Assembly (NCBI GenBank): GCA_009691845.1
Contig: SIAJ01000015.1
Location: 23,425-87,424 of the forward strand
Direction: 5' to 3'
From: Gemmataceae bacterium
Lineage (GTDB): Bacteria > Planctomycetota > Planctomycetia > Gemmatales > Gemmataceae
DNA: 64,000 bases
Shown here: positions 24,944 through 59,255 of the stretch, piece by piece
Numbering within the stretch: the first letter of the stretch is position 1
Layout of the letters: every line of letters begins with the position of its first letter
The notes under the pieces: generated by a model
What the model was told of the DNA's origin: nothing
What the model saw: the letters and a program-made list of their open reading frames with translations, nothing else
Databases searched by the model: none
Made by a program: the position numbers and the translations under genes

Positions 24944-26491
24944 TCATGCGACTTGTCCGCGATCGAGCTGCAATCGCAGGGTTACCGTTCGAGGCAATTC
25001 CCTCTCATCGTGCGTAATGAACAGCACCGTTTGCTCTGGAGAAATCCGCTCGTCGATCCATTTGCGGGCCAGTTCCTTTGTTCGTGCATCGAGAACCTGG
25101 AACGGCTCATCCAGCACGAAAAGTGGCGGATTCTTTACGAGGGCCCGAATGAGCAAAACAATGCGTTGCTGGCCAGTGGATAGTCGAAAGAAGTGATGCT
25201 CACGCAAATGGCCGATTTCAAAGTAGTCGAACAACTCACGCACGGTCACATCCTGTTCGGTCGTGGTCCGACGCGGGACAAGCACGTCCGAGAAGCCGGT
25301 CGCGGCTGTCCGGTCGGCCGTGAGCGGTTCCGAAAAATACAAATGCAGTTCGGGCGAGAAGAAGCCGATGCGCCGCTTGATTTCCCACATGCTCTCACCG
25401 TCGCCGCGCTGCCGGCCAAACAGTCGCACATGGTTGCTGTACGCCTGCGGATGATCGCCACAAATCAGACTCAGAAGTGTCGTCTTGCCGGAACCGTTCG
25501 GCCCGAGAATCGCCCAGCGTTCGCCGGCTAGCACAGTCCAGGAAATGTCGCGAAGGATCGGCTTCCCCGAGTACAAGACCGAAACGTTCTTTAATTCAAT
25601 GATGGGCGTCTCATTTGTAGTCGGCACACTCCGTGTGTTGTTCGGCGACGGCACATGAAGTGTGCCGACTACGTAGTCTTCGCGACGGCCCGAGTAACTG
25701 ACTCGACGATCGGTCAGTTCGAGCACATGCGTCACGCAATCGGGAATGGCGTCTGCCGGCAAGATCAAGATCAGACGTGACCCCTCTGCCACCAATTGCT
25801 GCAAGATGGCTGTAACCTCACGGCGTCCTTGGGTATCCAGTCCTACCAGAGGCTCGTCGAGTACGAGGATCTCAGGACGAGAAAGCAATACCTTCGCGAT
25901 GCGAGCCCGCCGAGTTTGGCCGTTCGAGAGTTTGATGAACGAGAGCGGACGCAGTTGTTCGATACCCAATCGAGTAGTGATTCTGATGAGTTCTTCGTCG
26001 GTTCCCGTCGTTCCGGCGCGCAGATATTGATCGAGCGTCAGGTCGTCGTCCGGTTCGATGAAGTTGAATCGTTGTTGATAATAATGCCTGGAATACGAGA
26101 AGAGTCGGGATTCCTCCTTGAACGCGACACGGCCAATGATCTCCGCAGGCCAGTTGATCGTGTGCCCGGTCGCACGCAGACGATCGATGAGCGGCCATTG
26201 AATTGGCTCATCGTAGTCCGCACACTCCGTGTGCAGACTGTTAGAATTCGAGGACTGCCGCCCTTCATCGAGTGGACTGTCGGCACACGGGGTAAGCCGA
26301 CTACTATGGCGCCCCAGCAACACCTCCGTTAGCGAACTCTTTCCCGAGCCGACGCCGCCGACGATGGCCCAGGTCTCACCTTCGCGGATTGTCCAGGAAA
26401 GTCCCTCGAAAATCGTCTCGCCGGCAGGGCGAAGAATGGTCGCATTCTCAATTCGGAAGAGAATCGAACTCGTCAACGATGGCGGCGTCAT
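24944..26491 (-). CDS. Double ATP-binding cassette protein (ModF-like)
   Basis: ORF 24944..26701; likely ATG at 26491 (MTPPSLTSSILFRIENATILRPAG). Two Walker A (VGGVGSGKSS; LGPNGSGKTT), LSNGQTRRARIAKVLLSRPEILVLDEP and LSTGQQRIVLLIRALVKNPPLFVLDEP. No permease encoded adjacently. Confidence 0.85.
   Translation of the reverse strand: MTPPSLTSSILFRIENATILRPAGETIFEGLSWTIREGETWAIVGGVGSGKSSLTEVLLGRHSSRLTPCADSPLDEGRQSSNSNSLHTECADYDEPIQWPLIDRLRATGHTINWPAEIIGRVAFKEESRLFSYSRHYYQQRFNFIEPDDDLTLDQYLRAGTTGTDEELIRITTRLGIEQLRPLSFIKLSNGQTRRARIAKVLLSRPEILVLDEPLVGLDTQGRREVTAILQQLVAEGSRLILILPADAIPDCVTHVLELTDRRVSYSGRREDYVVGTLHVPSPNNTRSVPTTNETPIIELKNVSVLYSGKPILRDISWTVLAGERWAILGPNGSGKTTLLSLICGDHPQAYSNHVRLFGRQRGDGESMWEIKRRIGFFSPELHLYFSEPLTADRTAATGFSDVLVPRRTTTEQDVTVRELFDYFEIGHLREHHFFRLSTGQQRIVLLIRALVKNPPLFVLDEPFQVLDARTKELARKWIDERISPEQTVLFITHDERELPRTVTLRLQLDRGQVA
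25617..25672. repeat. Inverted repeat family R1 (GTAGTCGGCACACT...AGTGTGCCGACTAC), copy A, inside ABC ATPase CDS
   Basis: 14-bp perfect terminal arms at 25617-25630 and 25659-25672. Confidence 0.85.
26213..26304. repeat. Inverted repeat family R1, degenerate copy B, inside ABC ATPase CDS
   Basis: GTAGTCCGCACACTCCGTGTGC ... GCACACGGGGTAAGCCGACTAC. Confidence 0.7.
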
Positions 26492-27579: not shown

Positions 27580-28840
27580 ATTTGCTTCCAAACATGGTCC
27601 AAGCCCCCATCGCAATCAGGGCCGCGATGGGGGCCAGGCCCGTGACCACCAGCGGAAAGTCGTACGATTTGCTTTCCTTGATGTAGTTCCCCATCTCTCC
27701 CTGCATGTAGCCCACCGCAAACCAGGATGTTGCAGCAAGCAAGCCGGACAATACCCCCATGTGTCGAGCCGGCAAGTCTTGTACCAGTGCGTAATACTGC
27801 GGGTGAGCGCCGAGTGCCCCGGCACCCACTGCGACGAGGCAGACCAACAGGATTGGACCGCGATCCAGCAACGGCACGAGTGCCGAGAGAGCGATCAACA
27901 CCGTGCAAAGCGTGAAACTGACGAGCCTGGCCCAGCGAACATGGACGTTCCGCCAGGTCAACACGCTAACTACCCCTCCGAAGAACAGGCAGCCGAGATC
28001 GGCAACGATGTAGTAACCCGACGTAAAGTAGTTCGCCGTAGACTCCGAGTAATGGTGGTACTCTTTCAGATATTTCGGCAACCACGCTCGCTGAAACTGC
28101 CAGGCGAGACTGATGGTGACGACAATCGTCACGAGCACCACAAGCTGGAAGAGCATTCGTCCGAGATGAATCGGCGGCGCATCCTTGGCTTTCTCGACGC
28201 GGACGTAGGGCAAATCGTTTCGGCGAACCAGTGCGAACCACATCGGCACCCAAAGCATGCCGATCACGCCGATGATCAGAAACGGAGCTTGCCAGGGAGC
28301 ACCCGTCGCTCGAATCGCCTGAATTACCAGCGGGGTCAGGAGAGCGCCCAGGGACGCTCCACTCTGGAGAATGCTATTGCCCAGCGGGCGTTGCTCGGCA
28401 CTCAGCACGTTCCTTGCTGTCAACAGCGCGCAGGGCCAGTGTCCTGCTTCGAAGAAACCCAGCGTCGTTCGACATACAAACAGCCAGCGGAACTCGCCCG
28501 ATCCCGGATCGTCCGGGCTGGCAAACATTTCGAGCACTTGCGGATTGATCGCCAGCGGCGAGGCCAGTCCGGCTATCGACCAGCCGACTAGCACGAAAGG
28601 ATAGAGTCGCCTGGGACCGACGCGGTCGGCAATGAAGCCGAAGAAGATACCGCCGGTTGCGAAGGCGTAACTAAACCAGCGTTCGAGATGCCCATACCGT
28701 CCGTCGTCGAGATGAATCTCAGTCTTCAGTTGCGTGGCCGTCAGCGAAAGTGTTTGGCGATCCATGTAGTTGAGCATGGTCGCCAGCAGAAGTGCGGCGC
28801 AAACCCACCATTTCCATGAGGCCCCTCGCGGTGGGCTCAT
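27563..28840 (-). CDS. MFS transporter (hexuronate/ExuT-like)
   Basis: WWVCAALLLATMLNYMDRQTLSLTATQLKTEIHLDDGRYGHLE; ~12 hydrophobic segments; start at MSPPRGASWKW with ATGA overlap with upstream creatininase stop. Confidence 0.85.
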   Translation of the reverse strand: MSPPRGASWKWWVCAALLLATMLNYMDRQTLSLTATQLKTEIHLDDGRYGHLERWFSYAFATGGIFFGFIADRVGPRRLYPFVLVGWSIAGLASPLAINPQVLEMFASPDDPGSGEFRWLFVCRTTLGFFEAGHWPCALLTARNVLSAEQRPLGNSILQSGASLGALLTPLVIQAIRATGAPWQAPFLIIGVIGMLWVPMWFALVRRNDLPYVRVEKAKDAPPIHLGRMLFQLVVLVTIVVTISLAWQFQRAWLPKYLKEYHHYSESTANYFTSGYYIVADLGCLFFGGVVSVLTWRNVHVRWARLVSFTLCTVLIALSALVPLLDRGPILLVCLVAVGAGALGAHPQYYALVQDLPARHMGVLSGLLAATSWFAVGYMQGEMGNYIKESKSYDFPLVVTGLAPIAALIAMGAWTMFGSKSDPRP

Positions 28841-29598
28841 ACGTCCCACTCCCGGCCATCCCAGGCGACGACGCGGTTGAGCATGGTCGCCACCGCCTTC
28901 GCGAAGCAGTTGAATAGTCCTTCGCCCTTTTCCGGCGTCGCATGTCGCGAGAAGCCGATGTGGCCGGGCGTGCTGCGGTCTTGCATCACCCAGGCCCGAT
29001 GGGCCGGTTCAAAGGCGCGACCGAACTGCACGTCGGGAACCTTTGTAACGTCGCCGACAACCAGGTGCGGAGCGAGCCGCATGATCATCGAGGTTTCCCA
29101 TTCGCAAGCGTGGCCCATGCGATCTTGCTTCAGGCCCGCCACGTCCTTCAAGGGTTCCGCACCAAGGGTCCAGTAGGTGGCCGAGAGAAGCAGCAAATCC
29201 GATTTGGCCCGATACTTTTGGCGTAACTCGAACAACGCCTGTTGTGCAGGCACTATGTTCCCACCGTGGCCATTCACAAACACGATCCGCCGAAAGCCGT
29301 GATGCAGAAAGTTCTCAGCCATGTCGCGGAGTGAATCGAGATAGACGCGCGGTGACGCCGTCATTGTGCCAGGGAAATCGAGATGATGTTCCGAATTGCC
29401 GAGCCAGTAGAGCGGAGCGAACAACACGCGATCCGCGACTTCCGGCTTCGCGCGGCGTAGGACCTCGCCCAGTAGCAGGCTATCAGTAAATACAGGCAGG
29501 TGATGCCCGTGTTGCTCCAGGGCGGCAATCGGGATGACCACCGGAGTATCGCGGTTCAGTGCCTTGACGGCCGGCCACGCGAGTTCGAAAAGTTCCAT
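28837..29598 (-). CDS. Creatininase family protein
   Basis: ORF 28837..29706; likely ATG at 29598 (MELFELAWPAVKALNRDTPVVIPIAALEQHGHHLPVFTDSLL). Motifs EQHGHHLP, NGHGGN, CEWETSMIM. The upstream 36 codons are translated repeat. Confidence 0.88.
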   Translation of the reverse strand: MELFELAWPAVKALNRDTPVVIPIAALEQHGHHLPVFTDSLLLGEVLRRAKPEVADRVLFAPLYWLGNSEHHLDFPGTMTASPRVYLDSLRDMAENFLHHGFRRIVFVNGHGGNIVPAQQALFELRQKYRAKSDLLLLSATYWTLGAEPLKDVAGLKQDRMGHACEWETSMIMRLAPHLVVGDVTKVPDVQFGRAFEPAHRAWVMQDRSTPGHIGFSRHATPEKGEGLFNCFAKAVATMLNRVVAWDGREWDV

Positions 29599-29617
29599 AG
29601 GTCTTTCTCCGACTTTC

Positions 29618-29700
29618 CGCTTCGGGGAGGCGGCAGGGGCGAGGGGTGGCTTGTCACCAAAAAACCCACCTCCTAACCCCCTCCCCGAAACGGAGAGGGG
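29618..29700. repeat. Putative interspersed inverted repeat upstream of creatininase
   Basis: CCGCTTCGGGGAGGCGG (29618-29634) / CCCCCTCCCCGAAACGG (29677-29693); 15/17 arm identity. Confidence 0.6.
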
Positions 29701-29712
29701 GAACAATACAGG

Positions 29713-44845: not shown

Positions 44846-44905
44846 GTAGTCGGCCCACTCCGTGCGCCGAACACCCGCACAGCCGCACACGGAGTGTGCG
44901 GGGTA
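44846..44905. repeat. Inverted repeat family R1, copy C (intergenic)
   Basis: GTAGTCGGCCCACTCCGTGCGC ... GCACACGGAGTGTGCGGGGTAC between the divergent 43568..44824(-) and 44964..46001(+) genes. Confidence 0.75.
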
Positions 44906-44963
44906 CTTTGAATGTAATAGCCTACCTTTTCGCTCCACAGAATTGAAGCCCAATCGGATCGGA

Positions 44964-53670: not shown

Positions 53671-56016
53671 TTATTTCTTCCCCGCAAGCACATTCAATGT
53701 CAATTCCACATCCCGACTTCGCACCCGCACGGCGGGCAGTTTCGCATCGGGGGCCGCACTGGCATTCAATTTCAGCCCCTTGATCTCACCTGCGGCTGCG
53801 TTCGGCGGCAGAACAATTTTCATCACGAACTTCGATTGGAATGTCTTCACTGTTACCGCGTCTGCCCGAACTCCGGCAGGCAATCCTGTCAGAGTCAGTG
53901 CGACATCGCCGAAGAAACCGTACTGACGTTCGACGCGACCGACGACCTCAATCGTGGCTCCGGCTTTGGGATCGAGTGTGGCCTCCAGGCGTGGCGGGCT
54001 TTCCACCTTGATCAACACGGGTAGTTTGACCGCGAACGATCGCACCGGCGTGTACACGGTTGCCAGCACGGTTCGCTTGTCGGCAGTGAGGATCTCGGCC
54101 TGGACCGCAAGTTGATACGAATCGGCAGGCAGATCGGCTGGAACGAGGAGCGGCATGTCGCCATCGCCGACCTTGGCTCCGAGTTCGATCGCACGTTCCA
54201 CGCGAATGGCCGCGTTTGGGTTGGGCTGGTTGTTGAGGATCGGCGCAGCCTGGCTGGAGAGCAAGGTCAGTCGCACCGGCGTCGCGGGGTCGGGCCGTTT
54301 CACGCTCACGGGCAGAGAGAGCTTGCCGGCGGGCGGCAGTCCCGCGTCGGCAGCGAAATTGCGCCAGTCGATCGAGAACGACTCTAGCTTCTCGTTCGTT
54401 GCGGCGATGGCCAACTCACTGGCTAACCACGGCTGTAACTTCTCGAGCGCGTGGCCGCGTTGGACAACCGGACGTTCAATTCCAGTGTCCCCACGGCCTT
54501 TCCAATTGCTGATTGTCGCGTTCCCGCCGGTCGAGAGGGAGACATTGATGAGTGTGCCGTCCGATCCGGGTGGAATAATCGTGTTTTCCAGCTTCGACCC
54601 CGGCGGCAAGCCTTCGGCAGATAGAACGATTGGGCCCTTGCTGCCACGCCGTTCCACGAAGACGGGCACGAGACACCTTCCACCGACCGGCAGCGAAATT
54701 CGTTGGCTCGGCGTGAACAGGCGGAAGTCGCCGGGACTGTCGAGCTGAATGATCTCCGCAGTTAGCCGATAAATTCCGCGTGGACTGCCTCGACCTTGAG
54801 AATCGACGATGGCCACCTGGATTGCTGTTACCTTGTCGGGAACTGTGTACTCGATAACCGGATCGAGCGTGCCTGGCGAATCTTCCGCTCTCACCAGGTC
54901 TGCCCCCAGCTCGTTGCGAATGACGAAAGCAACGTCGATTGGCGAACCGAGGCGTTCAGCGAAGACTTCGAACTTGACACGGCTATTCGGCGTCACGGGG
55001 AGTCGATAGCGATCCTCCTCGTTCGGTGCCGCAAGTCGACCGCTGACGCCGAGCGGAAGTGCCGGCAATTCCTGGGGTTTTGCGCTCGCGGGGAGTTCAA
55101 GAACCTCAGTTCGATTGCTGGATTGCACGAATGGACGCGGGCCGCTCCAGGAGCTTTCTTTCGGCCACGGCAGCATCGCATAGGATCCACTCACGGGCGG
55201 AACATCGACCCGCACTTGCGGGCCTGGACCAATCAGTTCGACTGTCTTCGTGTCTTTGCCGATCACCGGCGGAAAAAATTGATCGGCCGAGTTCCACTGG
55301 CCTAACTTCAGCCGAAAGTGGCCCGGCGCAGGCCCGGCATATTCATGGTCGTGGACGGCTACTGTGTAAGTGCCATCGGACGGCAAAGTGGCCTCGATGC
55401 GCGTATCGCCAAGCAGTCCCGACGCTGGCCAAGACCAGGCGACTTGCCGGCGCTGCGGGCCATACAGGTGAAGCACGGGCCGCAACTTGCCGCCGAGCCG
55501 CTGAGACTCAACTTCGATGATAATTTTTTGGCCGGCTTTCCCAGCGAAACTGGTTTCCGCGATGCTGCTGCCGGCAACGGATCCTGTTACTGCGATCTGC
55601 GACGATTCGAGTGATGGGGTGAGAGGCCGTTGAGAAAGCTTGTCGACGCCGATGAGCACAGGCAGGCTAACGCCCCCTTCAGTCACGAGGCGTAGGTTGT
55701 AGTAGCCAGGGGAAACCGCATCATCGAGTGTGACATCAATCGTGGCCTTCTTGTCCGTGCCACCCGGTTTGACTGTTTGCTTGGCGGCAAATGGGAGCAG
55801 CAGTTTGGGAGTCGTTCCGAAGCGGTCACCGTCGATGGTGAGGGTGGTGGTGCCGCCTACCTGCAGGCCACGGACGTTGATCGTTTGCAGATCGGGCTCT
55901 GCAGCGAAACAGGCCGACGTTGTGAACAACAGGAAAAGCCCGAAGCGTAGGCGAGGGGGAGAGATTTTTCCCTCGCTTACGCTTCGGGCTCTGAGTTGGA
56001 GAGTCATGGCGTTCAC
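53671..56016 (-). CDS. Secreted pre-peptidase C-terminal (PPC)/Ig-like domain protein
   Basis: QTINVRGLQVGGTTTLTIDGDRFG; FAGKAGQKIIIEVESQRLGGKLRPVLHLYGPQRRQVAWS; N-terminus carries a repeat-encoded segment RARSVSEGKISPPRLRFG. GTG at 56016 or ATG at 56007. Confidence 0.7.
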   Translation of the reverse strand: MNAMTLQLRARSVSEGKISPPRLRFGLFLLFTTSACFAAEPDLQTINVRGLQVGGTTTLTIDGDRFGTTPKLLLPFAAKQTVKPGGTDKKATIDVTLDDAVSPGYYNLRLVTEGGVSLPVLIGVDKLSQRPLTPSLESSQIAVTGSVAGSSIAETSFAGKAGQKIIIEVESQRLGGKLRPVLHLYGPQRRQVAWSWPASGLLGDTRIEATLPSDGTYTVAVHDHEYAGPAPGHFRLKLGQWNSADQFFPPVIGKDTKTVELIGPGPQVRVDVPPVSGSYAMLPWPKESSWSGPRPFVQSSNRTEVLELPASAKPQELPALPLGVSGRLAAPNEEDRYRLPVTPNSRVKFEVFAERLGSPIDVAFVIRNELGADLVRAEDSPGTLDPVIEYTVPDKVTAIQVAIVDSQGRGSPRGIYRLTAEIIQLDSPGDFRLFTPSQRISLPVGGRCLVPVFVERRGSKGPIVLSAEGLPPGSKLENTIIPPGSDGTLINVSLSTGGNATISNWKGRGDTGIERPVVQRGHALEKLQPWLASELAIAATNEKLESFSIDWRNFAADAGLPPAGKLSLPVSVKRPDPATPVRLTLLSSQAAPILNNQPNPNAAIRVERAIELGAKVGDGDMPLLVPADLPADSYQLAVQAEILTADKRTVLATVYTPVRSFAVKLPVLIKVESPPRLEATLDPKAGATIEVVGRVERQYGFFGDVALTLTGLPAGVRADAVTVKTFQSKFVMKIVLPPNAAAGEIKGLKLNASAAPDAKLPAVRVRSRDVELTLNVLAGKK
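55937..55990. repeat. Inverted repeat encoding 'ARSVSEG...PRLRFGL' inside the N-terminal coding region of 53671..56016
   Basis: AGCCCGAAGCGTAGGCGAGGG (55937-55957) / CCCTCGCTTACGCTTCGGGCT (55970-55990): 20/21 arm identity, 12-nt loop. Confidence 0.85.
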
Positions 56017-57795: not shown

Positions 57796-57858
57796 GTAGT
57801 AGGCACACTCCGTGTGCCGTTCGAGTTCAAGTGACGGCATATGGAGTGTGCCTACTAC
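57796..57858. repeat. Inverted repeat family R1, copy D (intergenic)
   Basis: GTAGTAGGCACACTCCGTGTGCCGT (57796-57820) versus ACGGCATATGGAGTGTGCCTACTAC (57834-57858): 23/25 arm identity. Confidence 0.88.
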
Positions 57859-59255
57859 TAAAGTCCTACCAATGGTGCGATCGGTGCCCCCTTCGACAAA
57901 GCAATCGGCCGATCCATCTGATCGTGCGTCTCGCCCGAAGGATCGATTCCCAGGCAGTGGTAAATCGTGGCTGTGAAGTCAGCAGGCGTAACCGGATTGA
58001 TAGCGGGATAGGCGGCATTCTTGTCCGATTGGCCGTAAACCTGGCCACCCTTTATGCCGCCGCCGGAAAACAGGACCGAGTAACATTCCGGCCAGTGTTC
58101 GCGGCCCGCATTGCTGCGGGTGATCTTCGGCGAACGGCCGAACTCTGCCGCGACGACGACGAGCGTTTCATCCAGTTGGCCGCTCTTGTCGAGATCGGTC
58201 ATCAGGGCGTGAAAAGCCTTATCGAACGGCGGAACCAATTCTTCCTTGTGGGCCGAGAAATTGTTCCAGTGCGTGTCCCAGGCAAAACCATTCGAACCTT
58301 GTGCGCGTTGCCAATTGCACTGCACCAGGCGGGCTCCTGAATCGAGCAGCCGTTTGCCGAGCATTACCGACTGGCCGAACAGGTTGCGGCCATAGCGTTC
58401 GCGTTCTTCTTTCGAGATGGCCGAGAGATCGACTGCCTTCTTCACGGCGGGCGAGGACAGCACATCGAGCGCACGAGCCTGGTTGTCCTTGATGGCCTGG
58501 CTCATCGCCAACTCGTTCAACTGGCTAGTCTGAGCATTGAGTTGATCAACCAGCGATAGCCGACGCTTCATCACGCTGGATTCAAGAGAAGCCGCCAGCG
58601 GGATGTGGTCGAGCTTGAAATCGTTGTCGTTCGGGTTGCCGCCAGTGAGTAGCGGATCGTACTTGCCGCCGAGTGCTCCCGCGAACTGCCCGGCCCGGCG
58701 ACCGCCGGCCACGTCCATGCGATGTGGCACGATGGCGAACGGAAACATCGGGCCTTTACCCGGCGCGAGCTTCGCCAGAACCGAGCCCATGTGCGGCATG
58801 TCGGCCCTGCTCATCGAATTCACATCCGGAACGGACCCCGGATACTGGTAGCCGGTAAACATCGAGTACGAGCCACGGCCATGATCGTTGTGATCGTGGA
58901 ACATCGTGCGAACTAGGGCGGACTTGTGCATCCACTTGGCAGCGTTCGGCAACAACTCCGAGAAACGTACCCCGCTTAACGAAGTCTGGATCGTCTTGAA
59001 CTCGCCACGAATATCTTCAGGTGCGTCCGGCTTGGGATCAAAGGTATCGAGCTGGGCAGGCCCGCCAGAGAGATAGAGGATAATGCAGTTCTTGGCTTTC
59101 CCGAACGATGCAGGTTTGCCAAGTGATTTCTTGGATTCAGACGAGAGTGCGGTGAGAGACGGCAGTCCGAGCCCCAAAAGCCCGAGGCCGCCCACGCGGA
59201 TCACCTCGCGGCGGTCCCAGCCAGCACAGGTAGAATCGTTAGGAATAAATGGCAT
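57858..59255 (-). CDS. DUF1501 domain-containing protein (copy 6)
   Basis: WDRREVIRVGGLGLLGLGLPSL; IILYLSGGPAQLDTFDPKPDAPEDIRG; AEFGRSPKITRSNAGREHWPECYSVLFSGGG. Confidence 0.92.
   Translation of the reverse strand: MPFIPNDSTCAGWDRREVIRVGGLGLLGLGLPSLTALSSESKKSLGKPASFGKAKNCIILYLSGGPAQLDTFDPKPDAPEDIRGEFKTIQTSLSGVRFSELLPNAAKWMHKSALVRTMFHDHNDHGRGSYSMFTGYQYPGSVPDVNSMSRADMPHMGSVLAKLAPGKGPMFPFAIVPHRMDVAGGRRAGQFAGALGGKYDPLLTGGNPNDNDFKLDHIPLAASLESSVMKRRLSLVDQLNAQTSQLNELAMSQAIKDNQARALDVLSSPAVKKAVDLSAISKEERERYGRNLFGQSVMLGKRLLDSGARLVQCNWQRAQGSNGFAWDTHWNNFSAHKEELVPPFDKAFHALMTDLDKSGQLDETLVVVAAEFGRSPKITRSNAGREHWPECYSVLFSGGGIKGGQVYGQSDKNAAYPAINPVTPADFTATIYHCLGIDPSGETHDQMDRPIALSKGAPIAPLVGL

Follow-up and report, generated by a model that had tools for sequence, protein, structure and literature searches.

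The closest described counterparts of the repeat analysed here are the GTAG-tagged REPs, for which 24 families have been published (Di Nocera et al. 2013, PMC3733652): these units consist of a short stem-loop with GTAG left unpaired at one of its ends, occur singly and as dimers with the GTAG facing outward (the HH type of those authors), and are mainly extragenic, where the GTAG supplies the TAG stop codon of neighbouring genes, while a minority lies inside open reading frames (ORFs). Among the intragenic cases, a uvrA gene of Opitutus terrae holds double insertions, and recB carries different REPs at nearly the same position in two Xanthomonas (PMC3733652). REPINs (Bertels and Rainey 2011, PMC3116915) are inverted REP doublets, also mainly extragenic, that can form one long hairpin. 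As for the Rickettsia palindromic elements (RPE), they occur in frame within conserved genes, at solvent-exposed places of the proteins, and in that study every Rickettsia ortholog carries an insert there at one shared position, the pattern expected from a single ancestral event (PMC3767692). In-frame palindromes in proteins are already known, from the RPE (PMC3767692) and from intragenic GTAG-REPs (PMC3733652); what is new, as far as the literature searched shows, is that many unrelated palindromes repeatedly fill the same loops in one bacterial family.

The window, the whole 64,000-nt stretch that was analysed, corresponds to positions 23425-87424 of one contig of a Gemmataceae draft assembly (5.71 Mb, 169 contigs, 94% complete). 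Its repeat unit is 26 nt long with the consensus GTAGT[C/A]GGCACACTCCGTGTGCCG[A/T]C, derived from 90 unit ends; the four bases GTAG, conserved at 97-100% per base across these ends, are followed by a stem-loop with the stem GGCACAC-TCC-GTGTGCC. The pattern had five matches in the window, against 0.00 expected from 100 shuffles, and with up to three mismatches it occurred at 99 + 99 = 198 places of the genome, with none for the reversed-pattern control; the small palindromic element proposed by the earlier note is a dispersed one. The repeat was also found in 17 of 95 genomes of the same taxonomic family, one of them with 240 places at no more than one mismatch; this is one planctomycete family, probably the Gemmataceae. 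The features of the window are the following:

24944-26491, minus strand: ModF-like ABC ATPase gene, an intact ORF of 515 aa with two ABC domains (PF00005 twice)
25617-25642, plus strand: REP unit of site 1, one dimer arm, in the inter-domain linker
25647-25672, minus strand: REP unit of site 1, the other dimer arm, after a 4-nt spacer
26213-26238, plus strand: REP unit of site 2, one dimer arm, in the loop after Walker A of domain 1
26239-26278, minus strand: dimer spacer of site 2, 40 nt, encoding about SPLDEGRQSSNSNS
26279-26304, minus strand: REP unit of site 2, the other dimer arm
44846-44906, plus strand: intergenic REP dimer of 61 nt, second arm degraded (6 mismatches)
57796-57858, plus strand: intergenic REP dimer of 63 nt, hairpin of -49.9 kcal/mol

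Regarding its distribution, the repeat was followed in an 844-kb sample made of the window and of stretches selected mostly for holding repeat copies. Sixty-five clusters were counted, 49 of them intergenic, nine touching a gene end and seven within predicted genes; with 58 of 65 extragenic or at an edge, and predicted genes covering 83% of the sample, the repeat is strongly underrepresented within genes. The two remaining copies of the window, described as intergenic in the earlier note, are indeed both outside genes, but the pair at 57796 directly abuts a gene end, that of the minus-strand gene 57858-59255. Units stand alone or, mostly, form inverted pairs whose GTAG ends face outward; the sample holds 31 such dimers. 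The spacers of the own-genome dimers are either 0-11 or 35-47 nt long and have unrelated sequences, which speaks against a simple copying of whole doublets. In the own-genome copies (window and L034-L073), the sequence that precedes GTAG shows a bias towards CCA[T/A]A, with A at position -3 in 82% of the ends. Dimer lengths were considered as possible multiples of three, and this was rejected: lengths modulo 3 (0, 1, 2) were found in 10, 8 and 13 of the 31 dimers, and in the window the pairs of 56, 92 and 61 nt are not multiples of three, while that of 63 nt is.

On these grounds (an unpaired GTAG with a stem-loop, many mainly extragenic copies, dimers in opposite orientation, GTAG serving as TAG stop of neighbouring genes, and a minority in ORFs), the repeat is a further GTAG-REP family, possibly one already described, the likeness to the 24 published families being one of anatomy. 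Two points differ from what was reported for those families (PMC3733652): the recurrence of palindromes, set out below, extends over three genes and 25 sequence groups, and the search for a RAYT with the repeat at its flanks yielded none. The dimers share the inverted arrangement, the potential long hairpin and the extragenic preference of REPINs (PMC3116915), whereas they have no linked RAYT among the loci searched and their spacers are unrelated between copies and of two length classes.

Concerning mobility, Y1_Tnp (PF01797) genes were sought in 16 genomes, and none of the 41 loci, from 15 genomes, was clearly flanked by the repeat; in the examined flanks (up to 1.5 kb), which cover only part of the matches, the repeat was absent from 40 of the 41 loci, and the one exception (G100, L128) has it about 1.2 kb away. 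In the own genome, the nearest IS200/IS605-type transposase gene lies some 1.7 kb away from a REP dimer and contains an internal TGA (L031, G000:C98:27732-28067). Because the cognate transposase was not found in the Y1_Tnp loci examined, it is the dispersion of the copies that suggests mobility. No clear target-site duplication, which the earlier note had proposed to look for, was seen.

The gene with two inserts encodes a protein with Walker A, signature and Walker B motifs in both ABC domains; its best NCBIfam model is ModF, with 311.7 bits against a cut-off of 459, so it is named only ModF-like. The two copies that the earlier note had placed in one intact ORF, at 25617-25672 (56 nt) and 26213-26304 (92 nt), were confirmed, as were the peptides it quoted, and the copies add about 19 (site 1) and 28 (site 2) residues to the protein. 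The window repeat is absent from every ortholog locus examined, and the alignment of orthologs shows both segments to be missing. At site 2, the distance from the P-loop helix to the next conserved motif is 9-10 residues in all 42 covering orthologs and 38 residues here; at site 1, the linker is highly variable among orthologs in length and sequence. A scan of 84,980 genomes for closer orthologs yielded a single real one, 56% identical. In an AlphaFold2 model built from 34 sequences (mean pLDDT 88), both inserts are the weakest internal loops, at about 50, and lie outside the Walker A, signature and Walker B motifs, as the earlier note had claimed. The palindromes of this gene are in frame, absent from orthologs and placed in flexible loops; neither of the outcomes that would have spoken against insertion was seen, namely orthologs with unrelated sequence of the same length at both sites, or a motif occurring nowhere else in the genome.

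The net gain at site 2, 28 residues or 84 nt, falls short of the 92 nt of the element; the LDEG of its spacer peptide resembles the ortholog residues at that position; in this one case, therefore, host codons may sit between the two arms. That the whole spacer is host sequence was rejected, since its 40 nt exceed the ancestral loop and only LDEG fits.

Of the seven in-gene clusters, five lie in genes whose products have recognised domains: two in the ABC gene and one each in mnmE, a PUFA-synthase-like gene and a GT87 gene. The last three hold the following in-frame repeats:

L034, 14648-14699: repeat in mnmE, within the G domain
L040, 9814-9839: repeat in the PUFA-synthase-like gene
L064, 9219-9244: repeat in the GT87 gene

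The other two (L039 and L071) were discarded, since they lie upstream of what is probably the real start codon or in an ORF with no known domain. The PUFA-synthase-like gene also contains a second, unrelated palindrome, at L040 8344-8392.

Beyond what the earlier note had described, the ABC inter-domain linker carries many unrelated palindromes in other species: a palindrome with a score of at least 15 is present in 15 of 46 sequences, and the sequences differ between species without relation to each other. Two further genes were selected because one genome carried an insert in each, and they behave alike: RsgA has such palindromes in 10 of 26 sequences, nearly all at the linker between the OB and GTPase domains, and MnmE in 11 of 27, spread over several loops, one of which, in the G domain, holds palindromes of different families in two genera (L278 of G114, and the own-genome copy in mnmE listed above). 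The 37 elements of the three genes fall into 25 sequence groups, and such unrelated sequences show that the events were repeated; this sets them apart from the RPE (PMC3767692), which belong to another clade, since here the same loop holds unrelated families in different species. Several linker palindromes are members of dispersed families in the genomes that carry them: a C-rich palindrome family in G066 and the GGGCGAACCGCGACCG family in G068, at dozens of places each, and GGAAYGCGG palindromes in G116, G112 and G073. Some ABC linkers have decayed or one-armed elements (L153, L161, L166), which fits neutral decay. In one ABC ortholog (L086 of G035), the palindrome seems to take the place of the linker together with the initial strands of domain 2, and the protein may be impaired.

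Among neighbouring genes of the same loci, six of 291 had a palindrome; three of the six were the target genes themselves, leaving 3/288, about 1%. The tests used an earlier, higher and more cautious baseline, 13/414, from which the known target genes were excluded, as was G068, because most of its in-gene palindromes (12 for 44 genes) are in spurious high-GC reading frames. With the index genome left out, Fisher tests against this baseline gave p values of 8e-9 (ABC), 4e-7 (RsgA) and 6e-8 (MnmE). These values overstate independence, as some species have an insertion family in common at the same place and may owe it to one ancestral event. Palindromic elements thus seem to land recurrently in a few protein loops.

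The explanation that accounts best for these data, and that very probably holds, is that of a GTAG-tagged REP family whose surviving genic copies are in frame in flexible loops, with a few tolerated loops hit by different families. REP elements would spread through the genome by a putative transposase, and selection would clear most of the copies that fall in genes, so that the repeat is kept mainly between genes, often beside gene ends. The genic minority would survive when in frame, free of stop codons and located where a conserved protein has a flexible loop or an inter-domain linker, the inserts there being presumably close to neutral; as such loops are few, different families in different species would end repeatedly in the same ones, namely the ABC linker, the OB-GTPase linker of RsgA and the loops of MnmE. 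The earlier note had attributed to the element itself the capacity to insert without breaking the frame. This is not supported, because dimer lengths are mixed modulo 3 and the repeat is depleted from genes, and the in-frame copies are better seen as survivors of selection.

A wider reading is conceivable, if rather doubtful: a small set of loops in housekeeping NTPases of this bacterial family (ABC linker, RsgA linker, MnmE loops) could be a shared entry point that repeatedly turns unrelated palindromes into protein and so provides and renews linkers, and the hairpin might in addition have an effect on translation that is under selection. The main finding itself shows a route from selfish palindromes to protein linkers, and its interest is that it comes as natural replicates, with one loop, different elements and many species, so that whether intragenic palindromes are neutral or selected is directly testable by comparison and by linker swaps.

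A selected role of the hairpins would assume that an mRNA hairpin at a domain boundary slows the ribosomes and helps co-translational folding, palindromes being favoured there. Both hairpins of the ABC gene are strong (-35 kcal/mol, z -7.0, at site 1; -47.1 kcal/mol, z -4.1, for the fold at site 2), and the recurrence at the domain boundaries of ABC and RsgA is what such a role would give; however, about two thirds of the orthologs have no linker palindrome, there are linkers with a lost or decayed arm, and the MnmE inserts are in several loops, one of them within the G domain. The role is possible but less likely than tolerance, given that most orthologs do without the palindrome and some linkers are decayed, and we consider it unlikely. 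Site-specific targeting, in which transposases favour a sequence or structure of these loops, is quite unlikely: the conserved shoulder CCA[T/A]A ahead of GTAG would suit it, as would the flank GACTAC at site 1, which repeats the element's own end, but 25 sequence groups occupy the same loops of three genes, and the shoulder is also found at intergenic copies and is therefore no feature of these loops.

It is very improbable that the palindromes formed in place, whether through an inverted duplication or through template switching, instead of being mobile elements. Some linker palindromes, for example those of L167 and L175, indeed had no matches in the sampled DNA; for the window copies this origin is largely refuted, since their family is dispersed over 198 places, and genome-wide dispersion also holds for the families of G066, G068, G116, G112 and G073. 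An assembly or gene-calling artefact, which a draft of 169 contigs with repeated units might suggest, is hardly credible, since every copy of 56-92 nt has a unique spacer and unique flanks, and the same type of insert is present in independent genomes assembled into one to three contigs (G063, G064, G065 and G079).

Finally, two other places of the window deserve mention. A strong palindrome with arms of 21 nt, at 55937-55990, is located at the 5' end of the predicted minus-strand gene 53671-56007, whose start codon may be misplaced. In the ORF 28837-29706, the N-terminal PLSVSGRGLGGG..PPLAPAASPKRKVGERP resembles the peptides encoded by the C-rich palindromes of relatives, and the true start is probably downstream.
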